From positions 620,001 to 684,000 of the forward strand of contig NZ_QRGD01000002.1 in assembly GCF_003449015.1 (NCBI RefSeq): 64,000 nucleotides of DNA, in the 5' to 3' direction. This DNA comes from Aureibaculum luteum. GTDB lineage: Bacteria > Bacteroidota > Bacteroidia > Flavobacteriales > Flavobacteriaceae. The notes beneath the pieces are model-generated. The model searched no databases. It saw only the letters and a list, made by a program, of their open reading frames with translations, and was not told where the DNA came from. The position numbers were made by a program, and so were the translations under genes. The first letter of the stretch is position 1. Each line of letters opens with the position of its first letter. Shown here in pieces: positions 2,488 to 16,390 of the stretch.

Positions 2488-3477
2488 ATGGTTACCAAGA
2501 CCGTTGTGATGTTAACCTTGTTTTTTATCCCCTTATTATTGTTAAGCACAGGTGTGGTTACATCAACAGCGATGTTATTTGTAGCATATTTAGTATCAGG
2601 TTTGGGAATGGCAGGTATTGGCATGGGTGTTATGCATGATGCCATCCACGGATCATACTCAAAAAACAAAACAATCAATACCATATTAGGGTATTCTTTC
2701 AATCTTATTGGGGCAAATGCGGCAGTATGGAAAATTCAACATAATGTGTTGCATCATACTTTTACCAATATTGATGAAGCTGATGATGATATTAACACAC
2801 CGTTTTTCCTACGATTTTCTCCGCATGCCAAACACCATTGGTTACATCAATATCAACATATTTATATTTGGTTTTTTTATGGAATGTCTACCATATTCTG
2901 GATTACCTCTAAAGATTTTGCAAGTTTAAAACGCTATAAAAACATGGGCTTTTTGAATAAAAAAAATGAATATAAAAAAGCATTAGTAAGCATGACGGCT
3001 TGGAAACTGATTTATTATTCATATGCTTTAGTCTTACCGTTAATTATGATTCCTTTAGCCTGGTGGATTATCGTATTGGCATTTTTAAGCATGCATTTTG
3101 TAACCGGACTCTTGGTAAGTACCGTTTTTCAGATTGCTCATATTATGCCAGACAACGAGTTTCCACTACCTGATGAAAAAGGGACAATGAAAGAAGAGTG
3201 GCACAGACATCAATTTGAAACAACTACTAATTTTTCTCCAAATAGTAAAGTTTTATTTTGGTTGATTGGCGGATTAAATCACCAAATAGAACATCATTTA
3301 CTGCCAGATGTATGCCATATACATTATAGAGATATAACAAAAATAGTAGCCGATACAGCCAAAGAATTTAACATGCCTTATCATGTGCAAAGCAGTTTCT
3401 TTCAGGCCATTCGCGTGCACTTAAAGATGCTTCGGTTTTTGGGAAAAAGACCATCGTTAATTGTTGCCTATAAATAA
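2488..3477 (+). CDS. Fatty acid desaturase, front-end/acyl-lipid type (start codon problem)
   Basis: Membrane di-iron desaturase inserting a double bond in acyl chains. Counting from the ATG at 2488, the three histidine boxes are HDAIH (50-54), HNVLHH (85-90) and HQIEHH (265-270), with hydrophobic segments between. The QxxHH third box is typical of the delta-5/delta-6 and acyl-CoA COG3239 branch; no cytochrome b5 domain. The same frame stays open upstream to a stop at 2368 and encodes family-like N-terminal sequence (including 'FSKTLRKRVN'), so the protein probably begins about 38 residues earlier. The only start-like codon there is ATC at 2374, followed by AAA AAT CCA, as if an ATG had mutated. 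The first ATG (2488) would remove the cytosolic N-terminus. Followed by two cold-shock genes, which fits a role in membrane fluidity. Confidence 0.85.
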   Translation: MVTKTVVMLTLFFIPLLLLSTGVVTSTAMLFVAYLVSGLGMAGIGMGVMHDAIHGSYSKNKTINTILGYSFNLIGANAAVWKIQHNVLHHTFTNIDEADDDINTPFFLRFSPHAKHHWLHQYQHIYIWFFYGMSTIFWITSKDFASLKRYKNMGFLNKKNEYKKALVSMTAWKLIYYSYALVLPLIMIPLAWWIIVLAFLSMHFVTGLLVSTVFQIAHIMPDNEFPLPDEKGTMKEEWHRHQFETTTNFSPNSKVLFWLIGGLNHQIEHHLLPDVCHIHYRDITKIVADTAKEFNMPYHVQSSFFQAIRVHLKMLRFLGKRPSLIVAYK

Positions 3478-3564: not shown

Positions 3565-3756
3565 ATGAAAGAAGGTACCGTAAAGTTTTTTAATAGTGCA
3601 AAAGGATTTGGATTTATAAAAGTAAAAGATTCTGATGAGGAAATATTTGTTCATACCTCAAATCTTATTGACGATATAAGAGAAGATGACCACGTTCAGT
3701 TTGAAGTAGAGCAAGGAGATAAAGGACTAAGTGCTGTAAAAGTAAGTTTAGTTTAA
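3565..3756 (+). CDS. Cold-shock protein, CspA family (63 aa)
   Basis: Single cold-shock domain that binds single-stranded RNA/DNA and acts as an RNA chaperone. RNP1 is 'KGFGFI' and RNP2 is 'IFVHTS'; the first beta strand is 'GTVKFF'. The ATG at 3565 gives the canonical 63-residue length. An in-frame ATG 57 bases upstream (3508) would add 19 Lys/Asn/Ile-rich residues unlike the family, so I take it as leader. The 13-base word ending at each ATG is identical (3499-3511 and 3556-3568). It lies 87 bases behind the desaturase and may be co-transcribed with it. A strong terminator follows. Confidence 0.9.
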   Translation: MKEGTVKFFNSAKGFGFIKVKDSDEEIFVHTSNLIDDIREDDHVQFEVEQGDKGLSAVKVSLV

Positions 3757-4041: not shown

Positions 4042-4233
4042 ATGAGTAAAGGAACAGTAAAATTTTTCAATGATTCTAAAGGATTTGGATTTATCACAGA
4101 AGAAGGTGTAGATAAAGATCATTTTGTACACATCTCTGGATTAATAGATGAAGTAAACGAAGGCGACGAAGTTGAATTTGATTTAGAAGAAGGAAAAAAA
4201 GGATTAAATGCAGTAAACGTAAAAGTTATCTAA
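4042..4233 (+). CDS. Cold-shock protein, CspA family (63 aa, second copy)
   Basis: Cold-shock domain RNA chaperone. 'GTVKFFNDSKGFGFI' holds RNP1 and 'HFVHIS' is RNP2. Strongly acidic in the second half (EVNEGDEVEFDLEEG). It is exactly the family length. Paralogue of the protein at 3565-3756, but separated from it by a terminator and supplied with its own promoter, so it is an independent transcription unit. A second strong terminator follows. Confidence 0.93.
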   Translation: MSKGTVKFFNDSKGFGFITEEGVDKDHFVHISGLIDEVNEGDEVEFDLEEGKKGLNAVNVKVI

Positions 4234-4894: not shown

Positions 4895-5740
4895 ATGAAA
4901 ACTATTATTCACGCTACCGACTTTTCAGAAAATGCCATTGCAGCATTAAAATATGCCCATGCACTAAGTTCTAAACTAAACGCCAATTTATTGGTAGTTC
5001 ATATCTTTGATTATCCTACTATTTTTGATACTGAAGTCGAAGAGCCCGTGCCTGACTTTGAAAAAGTGGCATATCAAAACAATAATGAACTTCTTGTTGA
5101 ATACTGCACAAAACATTTGGGAAATGATTTAGAACGTATGAATGTGAAAACAGAAGCCATTGAAAATATGTCTGTTACAAAAGCTGTCATTTCGAAAGTG
5201 ATAGAATTAAATGCTTTTCTATTGGTTACGGGTATGAAAGGTACCAGTGCATTCAAAGAATTTATCATGGGTAATACCACAAAAAAGCTTATAAAAAAAG
5301 CTCCTTGTCCCGTGTTGGCCATTCCTGAAGATGCCACACATAAAGATATCAATACAATAGTGTATGCAACCGATTTTGAATATAAAGATTTACAAGCCAT
5401 TCTTACCTTGATAGAAATTGCCAAACCATATAATGCGGAAATTAAGGTGGTACATATCTCTCCATCAGAAGAGTTTGACCCCATGATTAGAATTCAAGAA
5501 TTTGAAGATCATATTAACGATAAAGTTCATTACCCAAATATCATCTATGAAAATATTCCTTCAGACCATACTTTTGAAGATTTAAAACTGTATTTGGGCG
5601 AAGTAAATGTGGATATTATTGCGGTATTAAAACGTAAAAGAAAAGGGCTTTTAAAACAATTATTCCATCACGACTTAGTCATTAAAATGGAGTCTTATGG
5701 TAGACTTCCTCTATTAAGTTTTAACAAAACCTACTACTAG
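4895..5740 (+). CDS. Universal stress protein, tandem UspA domains
   Basis: 281 residues with two Usp domains (about 1-145 and 150-278), the tandem layout common in Bacteroidota. The first domain begins 'MKTIIHATDFSENA' and keeps the ATP-binding pattern G-2x-G-9x-G-[ST/N] (G113, G116, G126). The second domain, starting 'INTIVYATDF', lacks that glycine motif and is probably structural. Cytoplasmic stress protein; in related bacteria it is induced by low oxygen or growth arrest. The FNR-like boxes upstream agree with this. The next gene starts 17 bases downstream and is probably in the same operon. Confidence 0.9.
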   Translation: MKTIIHATDFSENAIAALKYAHALSSKLNANLLVVHIFDYPTIFDTEVEEPVPDFEKVAYQNNNELLVEYCTKHLGNDLERMNVKTEAIENMSVTKAVISKVIELNAFLLVTGMKGTSAFKEFIMGNTTKKLIKKAPCPVLAIPEDATHKDINTIVYATDFEYKDLQAILTLIEIAKPYNAEIKVVHISPSEEFDPMIRIQEFEDHINDKVHYPNIIYENIPSDHTFEDLKLYLGEVNVDIIAVLKRKRKGLLKQLFHHDLVIKMESYGRLPLLSFNKTYY

Positions 5741-7028: not shown

Positions 7029-7036
7029 TATCTTTG
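7029..7036 (+). promoter_or_regulatory. -7 promoter element TATCTTTG of the helicase operon
   Basis: Exact TAnnTTTG match, 15 bases before the ATG at 7052. Its presence rules out the upstream TTG (7034) as translation start. No convincing -33 TTG at the usual distance. Confidence 0.6.
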
Positions 7037-7051
7037 CCAAAATTATTTTTT

Positions 7052-8395
7052 ATGTCAAAGGGTTTTTCCAATCTCGGAATTAATGCACAGCTACAAAAAG
7101 GGTTAGCTGATTTACAAATATCTGTTCCTACAGATATTCAAGAAAAAACAATACCTGTTATATTGCAACAGAAAGAAGATGTTGTGGCTTTAGCAAAGAC
7201 TGGTACAGGTAAAACGGCCGCTTTTGGCTTGCCATTATTGCAATTAATAGATTTAGAAAACACAGCTATACAAGCGGTTATCTTAGTGCCTACCAGAGAA
7301 TTGGGGCAGCAAATCACGAGTAATTTAGAATCTTTTTCGGCACATATGCTTTCCGTTTCTATAGCTACAGTTTGCGGTGGTATTCCCATTAAACCTCAAA
7401 TAGAACGTCTAAAAAGTACTACGCATATTGTAGTAGCTACACCTGGTCGTTTGGCAGATTTGGTAGAAAGAAACGCTATTGACATTAAAAATATTTTGTA
7501 TTTAGTGTTAGATGAAGCAGATGAAATGGTAAGTGCTTTAAAAGAAGGCCTAGACAGCATTATCAAAATAATTCCTAAAAAAAGAAGAACATTATTGTTT
7601 ACGGCAACCATGCCTGGAACCATAAAACAATTGGTTCAAAATTATATGTCTAAACATGTAGTGCATATAGAAGCAGACATGTCAACCGTTGGACATCAAG
7701 GGATAGACCATCAATTTGTGGTAGTAGAACCTATTGAAAAATTAGAAGTGTTGTTACATTTCTTAAATACAAAACAAGGCAAGCGTGGTATTATCTTTTG
7801 TAAAACCAAAGCCGCCGTTAATAAATTAGCAAAAAACTTAGCCATTAATAAATTTTCTTCAGGTGCTTTACATGGAAGTCTTACCCAAGGAATCCGTGAC
7901 CGTATCATGGGGCAATTTAGAGAAGGTTATATTGATATTTTGGTAGCTACCGATTTAGCAGCTAGAGGTATTGATATAAAGGAGATTGAATATGTTGTCA
8001 ATTACCATTTACCAGATACCTATGATGCTTATGTTCACCGTAGCGGTAGAACAGCGAGGGCAGGAGCGAAGGGACTTTCGTTAACCGTACTCCAAAAAGA
8101 AGAAGTAGCAGATATTGCTCTTTTTGAAAATGCATTGGGTATTACATTTAATCGATTTAAAAAAGCAGATGCAGAGAGTATTGAAGAAAACAATACCTTA
8201 CTGTGGGCTAAAAAAATATTTAAAACCAAGCCCAATCATACCGTTTCTGAAGACTTAAAAAAACAAGTACGAACGATATTCCATCATTTAACCAAAGAGG
8301 AATTAATAGAAAAAGTATTGGCGAATTATTTGGAGTCCAAAAAAGTGGCTATTCCAGCAGCAGGAACTTCAAAAAATAAAAAAAATAAAAAATAG
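7052..8395 (+). CDS. DEAD-box ATP-dependent RNA helicase
   Basis: 447 residues from the ATG at 7052; an in-frame TTG at 7034 lies inside the promoter. All helicase motifs are intact: Q region 'VPTDIQEKTIP', motif I 'AKTGTGKT', Ia 'PTREL', Ib 'TPGR', II 'DEAD', III 'TAT', IV 'IIFCKTK', V 'ATDLAARGID' and VI 'HRSGRTARAG'. The C-terminus ends in a short Lys/Asn-rich tail, as in RhlE/CsdA-like proteins. Predicted to unwind short RNA duplexes in ribosome assembly or mRNA turnover, often important at low temperature. The stop is 2 bases from the next helicase, so the two are in one operon. Confidence 0.95.
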   Translation: MSKGFSNLGINAQLQKGLADLQISVPTDIQEKTIPVILQQKEDVVALAKTGTGKTAAFGLPLLQLIDLENTAIQAVILVPTRELGQQITSNLESFSAHMLSVSIATVCGGIPIKPQIERLKSTTHIVVATPGRLADLVERNAIDIKNILYLVLDEADEMVSALKEGLDSIIKIIPKKRRTLLFTATMPGTIKQLVQNYMSKHVVHIEADMSTVGHQGIDHQFVVVEPIEKLEVLLHFLNTKQGKRGIIFCKTKAAVNKLAKNLAINKFSSGALHGSLTQGIRDRIMGQFREGYIDILVATDLAARGIDIKEIEYVVNYHLPDTYDAYVHRSGRTARAGAKGLSLTVLQKEEVADIALFENALGITFNRFKKADAESIEENNTLLWAKKIFKTKPNHTVSEDLKKQVRTIFHHLTKEELIEKVLANYLESKKVAIPAAGTSKNKKNKK

Positions 8396-8397
8396 AT

Positions 8398-9711
8398 ATG
8401 GCAAATATCATCAAAGAGCAACAAGACATTCTTGAAAAATTAAAGATTTATACCCTGAATCCAATGCAAGAAGAAGCCTTGGAGGTTATAGATAATAATG
8501 ATAATACCATCATTTTATCACCTACAGGAACTGGTAAAACCTTGGCCTTTTTATTACCATTAATTGCAAGATTGAATCCTGAATCAAAAGAAGTTCAAGC
8601 ATTGATTATTGTACCTTCTAGAGAGCTGGCTATTCAGATAGAACACGTAATTAGAAACATGGGTTCTGGATATAAAGCCAATGCCATTTATGGCGGAAGA
8701 TCTATTGCAAAAGATAAAATTGAATTGAAACATACGCCTTCTATTCTAATAGGTACGCCTGGTAGACTGTTCGATCATTTTGAGCAAGAACGTTTTTCTA
8801 CAGACGAGATAAGAACCTTAGTCGTAGATGAATATGACATCTCATTTGAAGTAGGGGCTGATGGCGAAATGAAAGATATTATTAGCTATTTACCAAATAT
8901 TGATAAGCGTATTTTTACATCCGCTACCAAAGGAGCGGCTTTACCAAAATATCTAAATATTGGAAAACCAGTAACCCTAAACTATCTTGATGATACTTCA
9001 GGTTCAAAATTGGTAGTAAAAACTATTGTTTCGTCTTCTAAAAACAAACACAATACCGTTGTGGCCTTATTACATGAGTTGGGTAATGAACCCGGTATTA
9101 TTTTTTGTAATAAGAAAGAGCGATTGGAAGATTTAAGTGTCTTTTTAGACAAAAAGAACATTGCACATACCCGTTTTTATGCAGACATGGAGCAACAAGA
9201 AAGAGAACGTGCCTTAATAAAATTAAGAAATGGAAGTGTTTCTATTCTTCTTGCCAGTGATTTAGCATCACGTGGTATTGATGTTCCAGAGATGAAATTC
9301 ATTATTCATTATGAAATTCCCAAAACAGAGATAGCGTATACGCATAGAAATGGAAGAACGGCCAGAGTAAATGCAAAAGGAACGGCATATTTGATAAAAG
9401 GTGATGGTGAAGTCTTTCCAGACTTTGTAGGGAAAGCACCCATTGAAAAATTAACAAATACAGGTGAACGTAAAGCTCAATTTTGGACTACCTTATTTAT
9501 TTCCGGTGGTAGAAAAGATAAAATCTCTAAAGGCGATATTGCAGGACTCTTTTTTAAACAAGGTGAAATTAATAAGGACCAATTGGGCATTATAGAATTA
9601 AAGCCTGATTGTGCTTTTGTAGCTGTTCCTGCTTCAATTGCTACTCAATTGTGTGATAAATTAAACAACACCCGGTTAAAGAAGAAAAAAGTAAGAGTTT
9701 TTAGAATTTAG
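8398..9711 (+). CDS. DEAD-box helicase with DbpA-type RNA-binding domain
   Basis: 437 residues. Motif I 'SPTGTGKT', Ia 'PSREL', Ib 'TPGR', III 'SAT', V 'ASDLASRGID' and VI 'HRNGRTAR' are normal, but motif II reads DEYD (144-147) instead of DEAD. The last 75 residues (from about 'GGRKDKISKGDI' to 'KKVRVFRI') match the RRM-like DbpA C-terminal domain, which in DbpA recognises 23S rRNA hairpin 92. Likely a 50S assembly helicase. Translationally coupled to the previous helicase (2-base gap). The Ala-to-Tyr change in motif II keeps both acidic residues, so ATPase activity is likely retained. Confidence 0.92.
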   Translation: MANIIKEQQDILEKLKIYTLNPMQEEALEVIDNNDNTIILSPTGTGKTLAFLLPLIARLNPESKEVQALIIVPSRELAIQIEHVIRNMGSGYKANAIYGGRSIAKDKIELKHTPSILIGTPGRLFDHFEQERFSTDEIRTLVVDEYDISFEVGADGEMKDIISYLPNIDKRIFTSATKGAALPKYLNIGKPVTLNYLDDTSGSKLVVKTIVSSSKNKHNTVVALLHELGNEPGIIFCNKKERLEDLSVFLDKKNIAHTRFYADMEQQERERALIKLRNGSVSILLASDLASRGIDVPEMKFIIHYEIPKTEIAYTHRNGRTARVNAKGTAYLIKGDGEVFPDFVGKAPIEKLTNTGERKAQFWTTLFISGGRKDKISKGDIAGLFFKQGEINKDQLGIIELKPDCAFVAVPASIATQLCDKLNNTRLKKKKVRVFRI

Positions 9712-9919
9712 CATTTTAGCTAGGGGTAATACCAGAATTACATTCATTTAACTTTCTATGAAGCATTTAACAAAAGCTTGAATCATATTAAACTTTTGTG
9801 TATGCAATAGTGTATGTTTATTGGAAACTCATTTAGTTTTTTCCTTTTGAGAAAGTTGTTATTTGACAATATTTTTCTGTTTTTAAGAAACTAATTGCCC
9901 TCTTGAAAGTCAATTATCA

Positions 9920-9927
9920 TATCTTTG
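9920..9927 (+). promoter_or_regulatory. -7 promoter element TATCTTTG
   Basis: Exact TAnnTTTG with a TTG 22 bases upstream (9895-9897). It lies 20 bases before the ATG at 9948 and overlaps any longer reading frame from 9903, supporting the ATG as start. Confidence 0.65.
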
Positions 9928-9947
9928 CCAATAATTTAAAATTAAAT

Positions 9948-10829
9948 ATGAAAAAACCTACTATCGGATTTATCGGACTCGGCCTAATGGGAGCCAACAT
10001 GGTTGAAAACCTTCAAAAGAGGGGTTACGAGCTAACAGTTATAGATCTAAATAAGGAAGCTGTTGCTACTGTTATCGCTCGCGGTAATGCTAGTGAAGCA
10101 ACTTCGCCAAAAGAATTAGCTGAAAAAAGTGATATCGTAATGCTATGTTTAACCACTTCTGCTGTTGTAGAAAAAATCGTTTATGGCGATGAAGGAATTC
10201 TGGCAGGTATAAAAAAAGGTGCTGTATTGATTGATTTCGGAACATCGATTCCTGAATCTACTAAAAAAATAGGTAAAGACCTTGCCAATAAAGGTGCCGG
10301 CATGATTGATGCTCCACTAGGTCGCACACCAGCTCATGCCAAAGATGGACTACTAAACATTATGGCAGCTGGAGATAAAGAAACCTTTGAAAAAGTGAAA
10401 CCTGTTCTTGACGAGCAAGGTGAAAACGTATTCTATCTAGGTGCTCTCGGTGCTGGTCATACAACGAAGTTAATTAACAATTTTATGGGAATGACTACTG
10501 TTGTAGCGATGTCACAGGCTTTCGCCGCTGCTAAACTTGCAGGTGTAGATGGACAGCAGCTTTTTGATATTATGTCATCTGGCCCATCTAATTCACCTTT
10601 TATGAAATTCTGTAAACACTACGCTGTAGATAACGTAAGTGATTTAGGATTTTCAATTGCAAATGCCAATAAAGATCTAGGCTATTTCGTACAGATGATG
10701 AAAGATCTTGGTACAGTTTCCCAGATTGCTGAAGCAACTTCGGGTAACCTTCAGGCAGCTTTCGATGCTGATATGGGAAGTGAAAATGTTCCAGAAATTT
10801 TCGATTATTTTATGAAGCTAAAAAAGTAG
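9948..10829 (+). CDS. NAD(P)-dependent oxidoreductase, 3-hydroxyisobutyrate dehydrogenase family
   Basis: 293 residues. N-terminal Rossmann fold 'GFIGLGLMGANM', the linking 'LIDFGTSIPEST' substrate loop, and the catalytic lysine in 'TTKLINNFMGM'. C-terminal all-helical dimerisation domain. The family includes 3-hydroxyisobutyrate dehydrogenase, tartronate semialdehyde reductase and GLYR-type succinic/glyoxylic semialdehyde reductases; the substrate cannot be chosen here. Codon use is odd: by my count about 20 of 25 leucines use CTN, whereas neighbours use mostly TTA/TTG. This suggests recent transfer from a less AT-biased relative. Monocistronic with its own promoter. Confidence 0.9.
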   Translation: MKKPTIGFIGLGLMGANMVENLQKRGYELTVIDLNKEAVATVIARGNASEATSPKELAEKSDIVMLCLTTSAVVEKIVYGDEGILAGIKKGAVLIDFGTSIPESTKKIGKDLANKGAGMIDAPLGRTPAHAKDGLLNIMAAGDKETFEKVKPVLDEQGENVFYLGALGAGHTTKLINNFMGMTTVVAMSQAFAAAKLAGVDGQQLFDIMSSGPSNSPFMKFCKHYAVDNVSDLGFSIANANKDLGYFVQMMKDLGTVSQIAEATSGNLQAAFDADMGSENVPEIFDYFMKLKK

Positions 10830-11118: not shown

Positions 11119-12675
11119 ATGCAGAAAGAGCATCAAGAAAAAAATACAACACCAGAAATTTCATCAGAAGAAATTGATAAGTGCATTGCTATACTTGAAC
11201 AATTAGTTACGGATACCGATCAAATTTTTGACATTCCCAAAGTAAAGCGTACCGCTTTATTAAAAGCGTCAGGAATGCTTTCTAGACCAAGTAGAGAAGA
11301 ATTTTCTCGTAGAAAAAAGGATGGAAAGAAAGCTGCAAAACGGAAGCGAGCCGCAAGAGATAGAGCTGCTCGTAAAGAAACGGGGATTAGAAGTGCACGT
11401 GAAGCAGTCGTATTTACTGCACCTAAATTATTAGGAGCTGCTGCCTTAGAAGAAAAAGAACAATTAGAATTAGAATCGCCTAGAAACTGTTACGTCTGTA
11501 AAGCCGTATTTACAAAATTGCATCACTTCTATGACACTATGTGTACCGAATGTGGCGATTTTAACTATGCAAAACGTTTTCAGAATGCCGATGTAAAAGG
11601 GCAAGTTGCAGTTATTACAGGTTCTCGTCTAAAAATTGGTTATCATATAACTTTAATGTTATTAAGAGGTGGTGCAACCGTTATTGCTACCACACGTTTT
11701 CCAGTAGATTCTGCATTACGTTTCTCTAAAGAAGCTGATTTTACGGAGTGGGGACATCGTTTAAAAATTCACGGACTTGATTTACGACACATACCAAGTG
11801 TTGAAATCTTTTGTAATTATATTGAGCACAACTATGATAGCTTAGATATTTTAATAAACAATGCTGCTCAAACAGTACGTCGTCCTGCAGGTTTTTATTC
11901 CCATTTAATGGAAAATGAAGAACGACCTATAGATTCGTTACCAAAATTTGCTAGAGATTTACTGCAAGATCATGTAGGTTGTTTAGATGAATTGAAAGTA
12001 TTGACTTCTGGAGCCTCTTCTACTAAAAACATGCCAGTAACATGGCACGGTCCCGAACCCGGAATTGGTTTAAGGGCTTCTGCAAAATTGTCTCAAATAC
12101 CGTATAGTTTTGACAATACACTAGTTGCTCAAGAGGTGTTCCCTGAAGGGCAATTGGATGCAGATTTACAACAAGTAGATTTAAGAAAAACCAACAGCTG
12201 GCGTTTAAAACTCGGTGAAATAGAAACCACTGAAATGATAGAAGTTCAGTTAGTGAACTCCGTAGCACCTTTTGTGTTATGTAATCGCCTTTCTGAATTG
12301 ATGAAAAAAAGCAATACGGGTCAAAAACATATTATTAATGTTTCTGCAATGGAAGGAAAGTTCCACCGCTTTTTTAAGGAAAGTCGCCACCCGCATACCA
12401 ATATGGCAAAAGCTGCTTTAAATATGTTAACACATACTTCTGCAAGAGCCTTAGCCAAAGATGGTATTTTTATGAATGCCGTTGACACGGGATGGGTTAC
12501 CGATGAAGATCCTGCTGAATTGGCCAAAAGAAAACAAGATTTACACGACTTTCAACCACCGTTAGATATTGTAGATGGTGCTGCACGAGTTATGGATCCT
12601 CTTTTTGATGGTATCAATACAGGCAAGCATTGGTGCGGTCAGTTTCTAAAAGATTATAAACCTATTGATTGGTAA
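11119..12675 (+). CDS. Unusual SDR-family protein with basic N-terminus and zinc ribbon
   Basis: 518 residues. Residues 1-60 are helical; 60-90 are very rich in Arg/Lys (nucleic-acid-like). A CxxC-x14-CxxC zinc ribbon is at C124, C127, C142, C145, followed by a Rossmann/SDR domain from about 160. The SDR motifs are altered: TGxxxGIG reads TGSRLKIG (167-174) and NNAG reads NNAA (247-250). The catalytic serine is kept (S409 in 'NVSAMEG'), but the YxxxK tyrosine is Thr (T427) with the Lys kept (K431). An insertion of about 70 residues precedes the active site. It could bind a nucleotide cofactor without normal reductase activity, or use another acid. It is followed 1 base later by a VF530 DNA-binding protein, which with the basic N-terminus hints at a nucleic-acid-linked role. 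Function unknown. Confidence 0.8.
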
Positions 12676-12676
12676 T

Positions 12677-12901
12677 ATGAGTACAGAACAACCTAACAAT
12701 CCGTTACACGGTTTAAAGCTCGCTAAAATATTAGATGACCTTGTAGACCATTATGGCTGGGATGGCTTAGACCAACGTATAAAAATTAACTGTTTTCATT
12801 CCAATCCCACGGTAAAATCAAGCCTAAAGTTTTTACGAAAAACACAATGGGCAAGAGATAAAGTAGAAAGGTTATATTTAAATACGAACTTTAAAAAGTA
12901 A
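12677..12901 (+). CDS. VF530 family (DUF2132) DNA-binding protein
   Basis: 74 residues. '[24 protein letters not shown]', 'INCF' and '[11 protein letters not shown]'-like signatures ('[20 protein letters not shown]') are the VF530 family hallmark; the family is named after a Vibrio fischeri protein with a DNA-binding fold. The ATG at 12677 is one base after the SDR stop codon, so the two are translationally coupled. Role unknown; the tight pairing suggests a shared task. Confidence 0.88.
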
Positions 12902-12957: not shown

Positions 12958-14454
12958 TTACTGAACACTAATAGAAGACAACAGAAGATTCCATCCCGTT
13001 GAGGCGTCCCAAATTGATTTAGATTTATAGGTACTTGCTAAGCGTATGGCATATTCTGGTCGTTCGTATATAGTCGAATCTGAATCAGGTAGATTAATAA
13101 ACAATTCATAGTTCCCTTTCGACAATTCTTCTGGCCATTCAGCATTGAGTTTAATTGTTTGTAGTTCATCTGTATACCAATACCTAGGATCTGTGTCAAT
13201 TTTCATTTTATGGACTTTTTGACTTTCAATATTACGCAATACAAGTTCTACAATCCTGTAATTATAAGTAGAAGCATAGCCATCATTAACAAGATCTAAC
13301 TCGATATCTAATTTTTCTCCATTTCTTATTACTGATGGATAAACACCACGCTTTAGGACAAAACGATATCCCAAATTTCTTTTAATTTCATCTATACATA
13401 TGTTTGTCCAATCACCATTAACAGCACCAGACCAAGAGGTGTTTAAGAATGATGTATGAAACCTTTTTAAATAATGTTGTGCTTTTCCACCTTCTGATTC
13501 ACAATCATTTTCTGGACTATATACATCTTCACCATTTAAACCGCCAGGACAAGTTTCGCCTCCAAAGACCAAAAATTTCGTTTCTGCTGCTATATAAGGT
13601 TTTAAGTTTAGCGTGTCACTTACAGCGGGCCATTCATGAAAGGAATTGTAAGTCCAATAATCATCATAATTTGCCATGATACAATCGTTATGATGACCAA
13701 GTCTTGATATTGCAGTCCCTTTAAATGCTTCTTTTTCGGTTAAAGGTTTAGCCTTTGCTGGATGAGCATCTTTACCATCAAGAAAACGTAATTTATAATA
13801 AGGTGCACGTATTTGAATCATTCTTGACTCTGGAACAACTTCTAGCAATTTATTTATAACTTCTGAACGGTCAAGCCAATGTTGTTCTGTGACAGGTCCA
13901 TGCTCTAAATCACCAAAATAATCTGAATAAAATTGTTCTCCCCATGGACCAATGAGTCCCATTTGAACTACTGCAATAACATCCGTGTTTTTATCTAAAA
14001 GAGGTTTTAATTGATCTAAATGTGTTAAAATAGTTTCTTTTGGAGCATCATTAAAAGGAGGTGTACAGCAAGTATCACTATAGGTAAACCTAAGTATTAT
14101 TTTATTACCAACCTCTCTAACAATGTCCATATCTTTTTGAATTTTGAGTAAGACATCAGCCGTCAAAGGTTTATCCTTAAAAGTATTAAACTGATATGAC
14201 CTGTATGTTAAAGTACTACCTACTTGAAACCCACCTGCTGCTGGGTTTGGCTCCCTTAAGTTAATTAATTCTTCTGCATCTAATTGTTTAAAATCGCTCA
14301 TTTTAGTACCAAATGGTCTATAAAAACCACGCTCAGGATTTGTAAATTCCTGCAAATCTGTCTGGTACGTTACAATTGTAGGTTTATTGTTTCTATTAGA
14401 ACATGAAGCAACTAATAATAATACGAGTATAAAAAATATAGATTTTCTAACCAT
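12958..14454 (-). CDS. DUF4832/DUF4874 lipoprotein, glycoside-hydrolase-like
   Basis: 498 residues from the ATG at 14454. Lipobox 'VASC' with Cys18 gives an exported lipoprotein. Residues about 35-330 match DUF4874 (begins 'FTNPERGFYRPF', with 'GLIGPWGE' and 'RAPYYK'), a TIM-barrel related to glycoside hydrolases. The C-terminal beta-sandwich (about 375-495) matches DUF4832, a carbohydrate-binding-like fold. Acidic residues in 'GPWGE' and 'GGETC' are candidate catalytic groups. Likely acts on an extracellular polysaccharide, but activity is unproven for this family. Monocistronic, convergent with VF530. Confidence 0.82.
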   Translation of the reverse strand: MVRKSIFFILVLLLVASCSNRNNKPTIVTYQTDLQEFTNPERGFYRPFGTKMSDFKQLDAEELINLREPNPAAGGFQVGSTLTYRSYQFNTFKDKPLTADVLLKIQKDMDIVREVGNKIILRFTYSDTCCTPPFNDAPKETILTHLDQLKPLLDKNTDVIAVVQMGLIGPWGEQFYSDYFGDLEHGPVTEQHWLDRSEVINKLLEVVPESRMIQIRAPYYKLRFLDGKDAHPAKAKPLTEKEAFKGTAISRLGHHNDCIMANYDDYWTYNSFHEWPAVSDTLNLKPYIAAETKFLVFGGETCPGGLNGEDVYSPENDCESEGGKAQHYLKRFHTSFLNTSWSGAVNGDWTNICIDEIKRNLGYRFVLKRGVYPSVIRNGEKLDIELDLVNDGYASTYNYRIVELVLRNIESQKVHKMKIDTDPRYWYTDELQTIKLNAEWPEELSKGNYELFINLPDSDSTIYERPEYAIRLASTYKSKSIWDASTGWNLLLSSISVQ

Positions 14455-14933
14455 TTTTTTTATAATTTTAATAATGACCATTGTAAAAGTATTGACATGT
14501 GTTTAAGCACATTTGTTATGTAATCAAATTTATAACAAATTATTTGACTAGTAATATTATAATAATTACAATACAATAAAAACTGATAATTTCACAACTA
14601 TCATTGCGGTTAGGCTAATGATTCTTCAAAGAAATTGTATTATTTCTGTACATTTTATTTCTTACTCGTTTATTCTATTTGCAAGAAAGTTGCTTACTAA
14701 TTTTAACATAAAAATATTGATTTAAATAATTTTTAAAACCCTTCTTAAAATTTAGTTTGAATTTTTTACGTAAAACCCAATGAACTAGAGATATAACAAA
14801 AAAGTTGTATTTAAAAACTAAAATTAATAAACAATAATCGTTTTTTAATATTTAAGATTTACTTTTACCCACTTTTTAATCCAATTATTATCGTATTAAA
14901 ATACATATATATTATTATTATAAATTAAAAGCT
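14455..14933. other. AT-rich divergent intergenic region
   Basis: Separates the minus-strand DUF4832 gene from plus-strand rimK. No gene is supported. A short spaced inverted repeat TGATA-N10-TATCA lies at 14584-14603. No exact TAnnTTTG element near the rimK start was found. Otherwise nothing distinctive. Confidence 0.5.
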
Positions 14934-15812
14934 ATGAAATTCGCTATACTATCTGCAAACCCCAATCTATACTCAACAAAAAGAATAAAGGAAGCTGGTG
15001 AAAAAAAGGGTCATGAAATGATCATTATCGATCATACAAAATGTGACCTTGTTATTGAAAAAAAGAAACCTATTGTAATTTATAAGGATCAAGAAATAAC
15101 AGATGTACATGCTGTAATTCCGCGAATTGGAGCTTCTGTAACCTTTTTTGGGACTGCCGTTGTACGACAGTTTGAAATGATGAAAATTTTTACTGCTACA
15201 GAGTCACAGGCATTGGTAAGGTCTAGAGACAAATTAAGAAGTCTTCAAATTTTAGCTAGAGCTGGTCTTGATTTACCAAAAACAGTTTTTAGTAATTATT
15301 CGAAAAATGTAAGTAATATTATTGATAAGGTAGGTGGTGCACCACTTGTCATAAAACTATTAGAAGGTACACAGGGACTTGGTGTAGTGTTGGCTGATAA
15401 TAGAAATTCAGCGGAATCAATTTTAGAAGCGTTTAATGGCTTACAAGCTCGAGTTATTGTTCAAGAGTTTGTAAAAGAAGCAAAAGGGGCTGATTTACGT
15501 GCTTTTATTGTAGACGGAGTTGTTGTAGGTGCCATGAAAAGACAGGGCAAAGAAGGTGAGTTCAGATCAAATTTACACAGAGGAGGATCTGCAAATATTA
15601 TTGAATTAACAGATGAAGAAGAAAATGCAGCATTGAAAGCAGCCAGGGTAATGGGATTGGGCATTGCCGGTGTAGACATGTTACAATCTGAGAGAGGCCC
15701 ATTAATTTTAGAAGTCAACTCTTCACCTGGACTTGAAGGTATTGAGAGTGCTACAGGTAAAGACATTGCGACTCAAATTATTAAATACATAGAAAGAAAT
15801 GCAGATCACTAA
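14934..15812 (+). CDS. rimK: RimK, ribosomal protein S6--L-glutamate ligase
   Basis: 292 residues, full family length. ATP-grasp ligase that adds glutamates to the C-terminus of ribosomal protein S6. It has a RimK N-terminal domain (1-95, '[12 protein letters not shown]'), the ATP-grasp lid '[14 protein letters not shown]', the substrate-binding loop '[10 protein letters not shown]' and the Mg-binding '[15 protein letters not shown]'. Cytoplasmic. Followed 95 bases later by the retropepsin-like RimB homologue, its usual genomic partner, which supports the assignment. Confidence 0.93.
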
Positions 15813-15907: not shown

Positions 15908-16390
15908 TTGGAAATAGAGAAACTGAAAGTAATAGGAAGTGAAGAATGGTGTTCATTCGATGAATTAAAAATTCCGGCTATTCTTGCTAGAATTGATTCT
16001 GGAGCAAAAACTTCTTCAATTCAAGCAAAGAAAATCAAATTATTCACAAAGAATAATGAAGATTGGGTCCAATTTGTTGTGTATCCCTTACAGAAAAATA
16101 AAAGTATTAGCGTGACATGTGAAGCGAAATTTTTTGACAAAAGATTGATTAAGAATTCTTTTGGCACTTCAGAAGAACGAATTATTATAAAAACTCCTAT
16201 TACCATAGGTGAAGACACCTTTGATATTGAACTTTCACTAGCGAACCGCAGTGCTATGCAATTTGCAATGCTTCTTGGTCGCAATGCTATTGCTCATCGC
16301 TATGTCATTCATTCTGGTGTTAAACAAGTGCAAAACAAAATTTTAAGAAAAGTGGCTCTTACAAAATATAAACCTAAGCAGATTGATTAA
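15908..16390 (+). CDS. RimB-type retropepsin-like aspartic protease
   Basis: 160 residues. 'ARIDSGAKTSSI' (about 27-38) carries the single DSGA aspartic-protease motif of the COG4067/RimB family (PF05618, formerly 'ATP-dependent Zn protease'). 'MLLGRNAI' near residue 123 is the second conserved block. The family forms retroviral-protease-like dimers and in Pseudomonas RimB works with RimK on S6 glutamate tails. No ATG lies before the catalytic motif; the frame begins with TTG at 15908, which is the likely start and may keep expression low. Probably co-transcribed with rimK. Confidence 0.85.
   Translation: MEIEKLKVIGSEEWCSFDELKIPAILARIDSGAKTSSIQAKKIKLFTKNNEDWVQFVVYPLQKNKSISVTCEAKFFDKRLIKNSFGTSEERIIIKTPITIGEDTFDIELSLANRSAMQFAMLLGRNAIAHRYVIHSGVKQVQNKILRKVALTKYKPKQID

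Follow-up and report, generated by a model that had tools for sequence, protein, structure and literature searches.

A zinc-ribbon SDR-fold protein family with threonine at the catalytic tyrosine position, often found among RNA-related genes

The short-chain dehydrogenases/reductases (SDRs) form one of the largest families of enzymes, and in textbooks their catalytic residue is a tyrosine. Here, we analysed a stretch of 64,000 nucleotides (nt) from Aureibaculum luteum (assembly GCF_003449015.1, contig NZ_QRGD01000002.1, positions 620,001–684,000 of the forward strand), hereafter called the window. One of its open reading frames (ORFs), at 11119–12675, encodes an SDR-fold protein that carries threonine in place of this tyrosine, and a gene of the VF530 family follows it. 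From its sequence and gene context, and with about even confidence, we take the product to be an SDR-fold protein that binds NAD(P) and serves in RNA handling, with an active site that has been rebuilt and probably still works, rather than an ordinary carbohydrate or lipid reductase. The presence of Thr in every member examined, together with an invariant motif and the RNA-related company of the gene, would indicate either that an SDR scaffold hosts new chemistry or that RNA maintenance includes a step linked to NAD(P).

Conservation was assessed in an alignment of 78 proteins, namely the window protein, 66 main-clade proteins of Bacteroidota, six proteins of a divergent clade, three plasmid-encoded proteins and two from viral contigs (IMG/VR). 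A locus with an interrupted frame (L077) and one of two Streptomyces copies (L114) were left out. The relatives span identities down to 35% with the window protein, and all 78 sequences share C124, C127, C142, C145, K172, R193, N247, N248, N380, E412, G413 and K420 as well as the residues of the motif H424-x-H426-T427-N428-M429-x-K431. Half of the columns at residues 405–440 are invariant (18/36), compared with 0/115 in the N-terminus and 2/110 in an insert that splits the SDR domain. In a second sample, the best 80 of at least 584 relatives from a scan of genome contigs, CxxC-x14-CxxC, PHTNMAK and NV[S/T]AMEG were present in 80/80.

The classical SDR tetrad is Asn-Ser-Tyr-Lys, as given in PMC3526285. 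Its Asn and Lys are kept in all 78 sequences as N380 and K431. By ungapped count, the Tyr of YxxxK falls on T427, and since T427 is found in 78/78, Thr occupies this position throughout the aligned sample, as it does in all of the best 80 contig relatives. A preliminary description of the window had noted the replacement of Tyr by Thr in the single protein, and this observation now extends to the family. It had also considered that homologues with a restored YxxxK might act as ordinary reductases; none was seen in either sample, although the scans kept the nearest matches and more distant members may exist. If one inserted residue is allowed, as in one HMMER alignment, the equivalent of Tyr could be H426, so that H426 and T427 are both candidates. 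The Ser had been described as kept. However, when NVSAMEG is set beside the classical NISSxxG and positions are counted from its Gly, as in the HMMER alignments, the catalytic Ser falls on A410 and not on S409, which lies one residue before it, and the description therefore fails for most of the family. Assigned in this way by motif spacing, the column holds Ala in 72/78 sequences, the window's included, and Ser in the six of the divergent clade.

The cofactor motif is changed as well. TGxxxGxG is replaced by TGxRxKIG, in which the third Gly has become Lys172 in 78/78. With basic residues in its cofactor loop and following strand 2 (K172 and R193), the family may prefer NADP as cofactor. The window protein further contains NNAA at residues 247–250 and TNMAK at residues 427–431. 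At the level of the fold, membership of the SDR superfamily is indicated by a predicted Rossmann fold and by Pfam matches above the cut-off, namely PF00106 (63 bits, cut-off 26.6, E 3.5e-17) and PF13561 (49.7 bits, cut-off 27, E 4.8e-13), each broken in two around the insert of ~110 residues. An AlphaFold model based on 23 sequences (mean predicted local distance difference test score, pLDDT, of 67; predicted template modelling score, pTM, of 0.68) arranges its strands and helices in the manner of an SDR. Residues ~157–508 match many SDRs, with a Foldseek probability of 1.00 in the 50 rows shown and a best VIA Z of 22.4, to tropinone reductase-I (1ae1). Judged on sequence, the family departs from classical SDRs in the catalytic Tyr, the catalytic Ser and the TGxxxGxG motif and agrees with them in the Asn and Lys of the tetrad, which supports the earlier view of a non-standard SDR.

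The Arg/Lys-rich N-terminus (about residues 57–95), the CxxC-x14-CxxC arrangement and the glycine motif were likewise recovered in the ORF as first described. Of residues 1–160, for which a domain search had been proposed as a check, the N-terminal region (residues 1–120) gave no Pfam match. For residues 110–164, the search for a known zinc-ribbon family gave sub-threshold Pfam matches, with none above threshold. The basic N-terminus is present in part of the family, and one member (L116) starts near the zinc ribbon.

Gene neighbourhoods were compared at 61 main-clade loci from 43 genera, comprising L145–L149 and L183–L238 with G010 added; G716, the window's own genome, L139–L142 and the six divergent loci were left out. 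Genes were called mechanically as ORFs of at least 60 residues and labelled with BLAST seeds for DEAD-box helicase, cold-shock domain (Csp), J-domain/KTSC, VF530 and superfamily 2 (SF2) helicase, the families being checked by Pfam. Because the labels came from these seeds, RNA genes outside the set would go unlabelled. Seed-labelled genes accounted for 96 of the 354 genes within three genes of the SDR, compared with 22 of 489 at a distance of five genes or more. A DEAD-box helicase was found within three genes in 25 of the 43 genera, Csp in 20, a J-domain gene in 11, an SF2 helicase in five, VF530 in four and any of these in 31. The immediate same-strand neighbour (within 150 nt) was seed-labelled for 32/62 SDR genes, against 14/333 background genes, taken from these loci at a distance of five genes or more. 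The arrangement of neighbours differs between genera. On the gene tree, the context labels require 37 changes, which falls between the least possible 20 and the shuffled mean of 48.8, so the contexts cluster yet shuffle; the tree program warned of long branches (L116, L111, L142, L115, L113, L112 and L183) and, separately, of long branches that meet. The window itself has 2/5 of the genomic Csp matches and 2/20 of the genomic DEAD-profile matches within 8 kb upstream of its SDR gene, and its own surroundings would fit a cold-shock or RNA-remodelling island. Judged by gene context, an association of the SDR protein with nucleic acid, as first suggested, is likely.

A different RNA-related setting was found for the divergent sister clade. 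Its six loci, from three genera, are 61–96% identical to L143, while L143 and L144 share 36% and 35% identity with the window protein, and all six fall on the same side of a 100/100 branch, for which the tree program's caution on long branches applies. RlaP and a T4 Rnl2-type RNA ligase occur in 3/6 loci (L143, L144 and L180), and DUF434 in 4/6 (the same three and L179), which represent two genera. L180 also carries a PNKP phosphatase domain, and RNase T is present in L180 and, 83% identical, in L179. With RNA ligase plus RlaP taken as the mark of an RNA-repair neighbourhood, the clade occupies RNA-repair islands in two genera out of three, the mark being absent from L181 and L182. In L179 and L180, the SDR gene overlaps the preceding gene by 23 nt under mechanical ORF limits, and a later start would shrink this overlap. 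L143 encodes a protein that matches Receptor-L weakly (PF01030), and relatives of this protein follow the SDR in L180, L181 and L182. In L115 (1303–2457), a true leucine-rich repeat (LRR) protein lies directly downstream of the SDR. The SDR on a Deinococcus plasmid is followed by a short ORF (L111, 6083–6493) that, on visual comparison, is similar to the beginning of the L115 LRR protein and seems degraded.

For the favoured reading, the following mechanism may be proposed. The zinc ribbon and the basic N-terminus would dock the SDR protein on RNA or an RNA–protein complex, and the SDR domain would bind a dinucleotide via the TGxRxKIG loop; both the binding of a cofactor and the association with RNA are what we infer from these features. 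The rebuilt tetrad would consist of Asn380-Ala410-Thr427-Lys431, with the invariant E412, K420, H424, H426 and N428 nearby in sequence. Chemistry would most likely be retained, while the reaction, the role of His and the substrate are conjectural. A His might take over the role of Tyr, and the substrate might be a damaged or modified nucleotide or an RNA end, exposed by the neighbouring helicases in cold-shock islands or passed on by repair enzymes in the sister clade. A bolder proposal, which we regard as unlikely, is that the family represents an undescribed class of RNA-repair or RNA-modification enzymes. In such enzymes, the invariant HxHTNxxK would replace the Ser/Tyr chemistry, NADP(H) or NAD-capped RNA itself would be used on RNA ends or damaged bases, and the genes would be employed both in dedicated islands of RNA repair and in the cold-shock helicase islands of Flavobacteriaceae. 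No description of the SDR family, or of VF530, was found in the literature searched, which covers subscription journals thinly, and one may be in print elsewhere.

Several observations weigh against a role in RNA handling with an active site. No seed-labelled neighbour was found within three genes in 12 of the 43 genera. Among the best 80 of at least 584 contig loci, 35 have a DEAD gene, and by title these are 35/43 of the non-Flavobacterium loci and 0/37 of those titled Flavobacterium. Four loci from other Bacteroidota families (L139–L142) have no DEAD gene within three genes, L139 having one at the fourth place. In Tsukamurella, the sole annotated Actinomycetota record, nothing RNA-related adjoins the SDR, and the nearest candidate is a VapC toxin gene ~2.5 kb downstream. 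No repair gene was labelled in the third divergent genus (L181 and L182). Moreover, because the loci share ancestry, the counts do not amount to independent trials, and cold-shock islands gather stress genes of many kinds. Finally, the confidence of the model is middling (pLDDT 67), with residues 412–424 below 50.

The loss of Tyr in 78/78 and of Ser in 72/78 sequences would also suit a protein without catalysis, one that serves a helicase or repair complex as a structural or RNA-binding subunit, with an SDR domain that is either NAD(P)-bound or empty. Human SDR5C1, in the mitochondrial tRNA methyltransferase/RNase P complex, provides a precedent, since according to PMC3526285 tRNA methylation and cleavage require neither its dehydrogenase activity nor its NAD(H) site, and the RNA-gene neighbourhoods described above are compatible with such a subunit. 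However, half of the active-site columns are invariant, including seven polar or charged residues that a scaffold would not obviously need. Because E412, K420, H424, H426, T427, N428 and K431 are kept in every member, a pure scaffold would be unexpected, and we consider this explanation possible but doubtful.

In a second alternative, the protein is a cold- or stress-induced oxidoreductase with unusual catalytic residues that acts on a small molecule, is carried in stress islands and has no RNA role. Genes resembling a fatty-acid desaturase, UspA and hydroxyisobutyrate dehydrogenase in the window island would agree with this, as would the missing helicase neighbour in the loci titled Flavobacterium. 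Against it stand the RNA-repair islands of the sister clade, with their ligase and RlaP, as well as the invariance of the zinc ribbon and the enrichment of RNA genes near the main clade. We hold ordinary stress metabolism to be unlikely.

The gene downstream of the SDR is a clear VF530 member (118.6 bits, cut-off 27, E 1.3e-34). The one-base gap between the two genes was confirmed (SDR stop codon at 12673–12675, VF530 ATG at 12677–12679), although the term 'fused' was too strong for what are two separate adjacent genes. The pairing is real in the window but does not hold as a rule across genera, and the neighbourhood survey weakened the idea of a dedicated partner. VF530 occurs within three genes of the SDR at 6/61 main-clade loci (4/43 genera), directly downstream within 150 nt for 4/62 SDR genes, and in the flanks of 2 of the best 80 (of at least 584) contig loci, both of the window's genus. 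VF530 is present in 143/249 family genomes. As an obligate partner of the SDR it was rejected, with 39/43 genera lacking it within three genes.

VF530 keeps steadier company with helicases. A DEAD-box helicase lies within ~1.5 kb at 27 of 38 VF530 loci (L101–L110 and L239–L266), and the SDR at 4/38; the 38 are the 10 best-scoring loci and 28 from a genome survey, and represent best-scoring loci rather than a random draw. In a control, the helicase seeds found none near 12 ordinary-SDR loci. The closeness of VF530 to DEAD-box helicases in 27/38 loci suggests that it may act as an accessory to RNA helicases. Because VF530 is more regularly near such a helicase, its pairing with the SDR seems to belong to a larger helicase/cold-shock island. 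A protein family named for DNA binding thereby gains a testable new context as a partner of DEAD-box helicases. In the congener G012, no SDR of this family was found, and a 36-nt stretch just before VF530 (L107, 1443–1478) matches the SDR 3′ end at 31/36 positions, a score that 0/1000 shuffles reached. The SDR was therefore probably deleted there, leaving the 36 nt as a scar directly before VF530. It is highly improbable that the SDR protein serves DNA or RNA as a redox sensor and has VF530 as a dedicated partner: the one-base gap, the four genera and the relic in G012, which suggests that the pair is older there, are outweighed by the 39 genera mentioned above, by the occurrence of VF530 near DEAD-box helicases without the SDR, and by the fact that no sensing or output domain was recognised.

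Downstream of VF530, the window contains a RimK-like ligase gene followed by a gene of the Zn_protease family (Table 1). In L002, RimK comes directly after VF530, and there is no room at that place for the protein with DUF4874 and DUF4832 that lies between VF530 and RimK in the window. Among the window neighbours scanned (two helicases, the NAD_binding_2 protein, VF530, the DUF4832/DUF4874 protein, RimK and Zn_protease), no ligase, nucleotidyltransferase or end-processing enzyme of RNA repair was found beside the SDR. The window has no known non-coding RNA at gathering score and no tRNA by ARAGORN. Known anti-phage defence was considered and rejected, PADLOC on four proteins having given one weak match, JetC (E 0.0054, residues 15–137).

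Table 1. Positions of the SDR gene, its parts and its neighbours in the window
Feature	Position	Strand	Basis and remarks
Fatty-acid-desaturase-like ORF	2488–3477		In window island; named by eye
Cold-shock domain match	3571–3750	+	PF00313, own-genome search
Cold-shock domain match	4048–4227	+	PF00313, own-genome search
UspA-like ORF	4895–5740		In window island; named by eye
DEAD-box helicase	7034–8395	+	PF00270, PF00271
DEAD-box helicase with DbpA RNA-binding domain	8398–9711	+	PF00270, PF00271, PF03880
NAD_binding_2 / 3-hydroxyisobutyrate-dehydrogenase-like gene	9903–10829	+	PF03446, PF14833; between helicase and SDR
SDR-fold gene, Thr-for-Tyr family	11119–12675	+	ORF, 518 residues; PF00106 and PF13561; SDR fold by model
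N-terminal helical, Arg/Lys-rich region, residues 1–120	11119–11478	+	No Pfam match; 0/115 columns invariant (78-protein alignment)
Putative zinc ribbon C124-x2-C127-x14-C142-x2-C145	11488–11553	+	Four Cys in 78/78; Pfam matches all sub-threshold
Cofactor loop TGSRLKIG, residues 167–174	11617–11640	+	Third motif Gly is Lys172; K172 in 78/78
Insert of ~110 residues splitting the SDR halves	11887–12216	+	Length variable; 2/110 columns invariant
Active-site region, residues 405–440, IINVSAMEG...K420...H-P-H-T-N-M-A-K	12331–12438	+	18/36 columns invariant in 78 sequences
VF530 gene	12677–12901	+	PF09905; one base past SDR stop; solved relative 2jvw
DUF4874 and DUF4832 protein	12958–14481	-	Between VF530 and RimK
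RimK-like ligase	14934–15812		Downstream of VF530
Zn_protease-family gene	15908–16390		PF05618; after RimK

The SDR is carried by 64/397 Flavobacteriaceae genomes, and the titles of the best 80 of at least 584 contig relatives name Flavobacteriaceae genera, Flavobacteriales bins and, in one case, a Bacteroidetes bin. The aligned relatives span Bacteroidota, Deinococcota and Actinomycetota, in addition to the two from the viral-contig scan (IMG/VR); the phage records searched gave no match. Plasmid copies comprise one from Deinococcus, two from Streptomyces and one from Tsukamurella. A fifth plasmid record, from Rhizobium, is a partial match to 21% of the query and has the look of an ordinary SDR. 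In Flavobacteriaceae bacterium F08102 (L077, L005), the SDR frame is hit by an in-frame TAA near codon 434, reflecting a broken copy or a sequencing error, and intact copies are present in its relatives. Second SDR copies were seen in G467 (L227), where the two lie ~3.1 kb apart, and in G476 (L192, L193), G622 (L223, L224) and G774 (L205, L206). In both G622 and G774, DEAD genes neighbour one of the copies, and none of the labelled genes lies near the other.

A comparison with known systems places the family closest in fold to classical SDR reductases such as FabG, tropinone reductase and gluconate 5-dehydrogenase (PF00106/PF13561), with which the window protein shares the fold of residues 157–508, the Asn and Lys of the tetrad and the NNA motif. 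Compared with these enzymes, the family has Thr for Tyr, Ala for Ser (72/78) and TGxRxKIG for TGxxxGxG, and it adds the insert, the zinc ribbon and the basic N-terminus. Pteridine reductase/FolM-type SDRs (TGxxxRxG) would resemble the family in that a basic residue takes over from the third Gly in their cofactor loop, but to our knowledge they keep the catalytic Tyr and have no zinc ribbon; we know of no zinc ribbon in SDR5C1/HSD17B10 either. The latter, in human mitochondrial RNase P, is an SDR fold used in RNA maturation, as described in PMC3526285. Bacterial RNA-repair islands with RlaP, Rnl2 ligase, PNKP and DUF434 house the divergent sister clade in two genera, whereas such genes do not adjoin the window's SDR copy among the neighbours scanned. 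VF530 (PF09905), whose Pfam name denotes DNA binding, is here found most regularly near a DEAD-box helicase.
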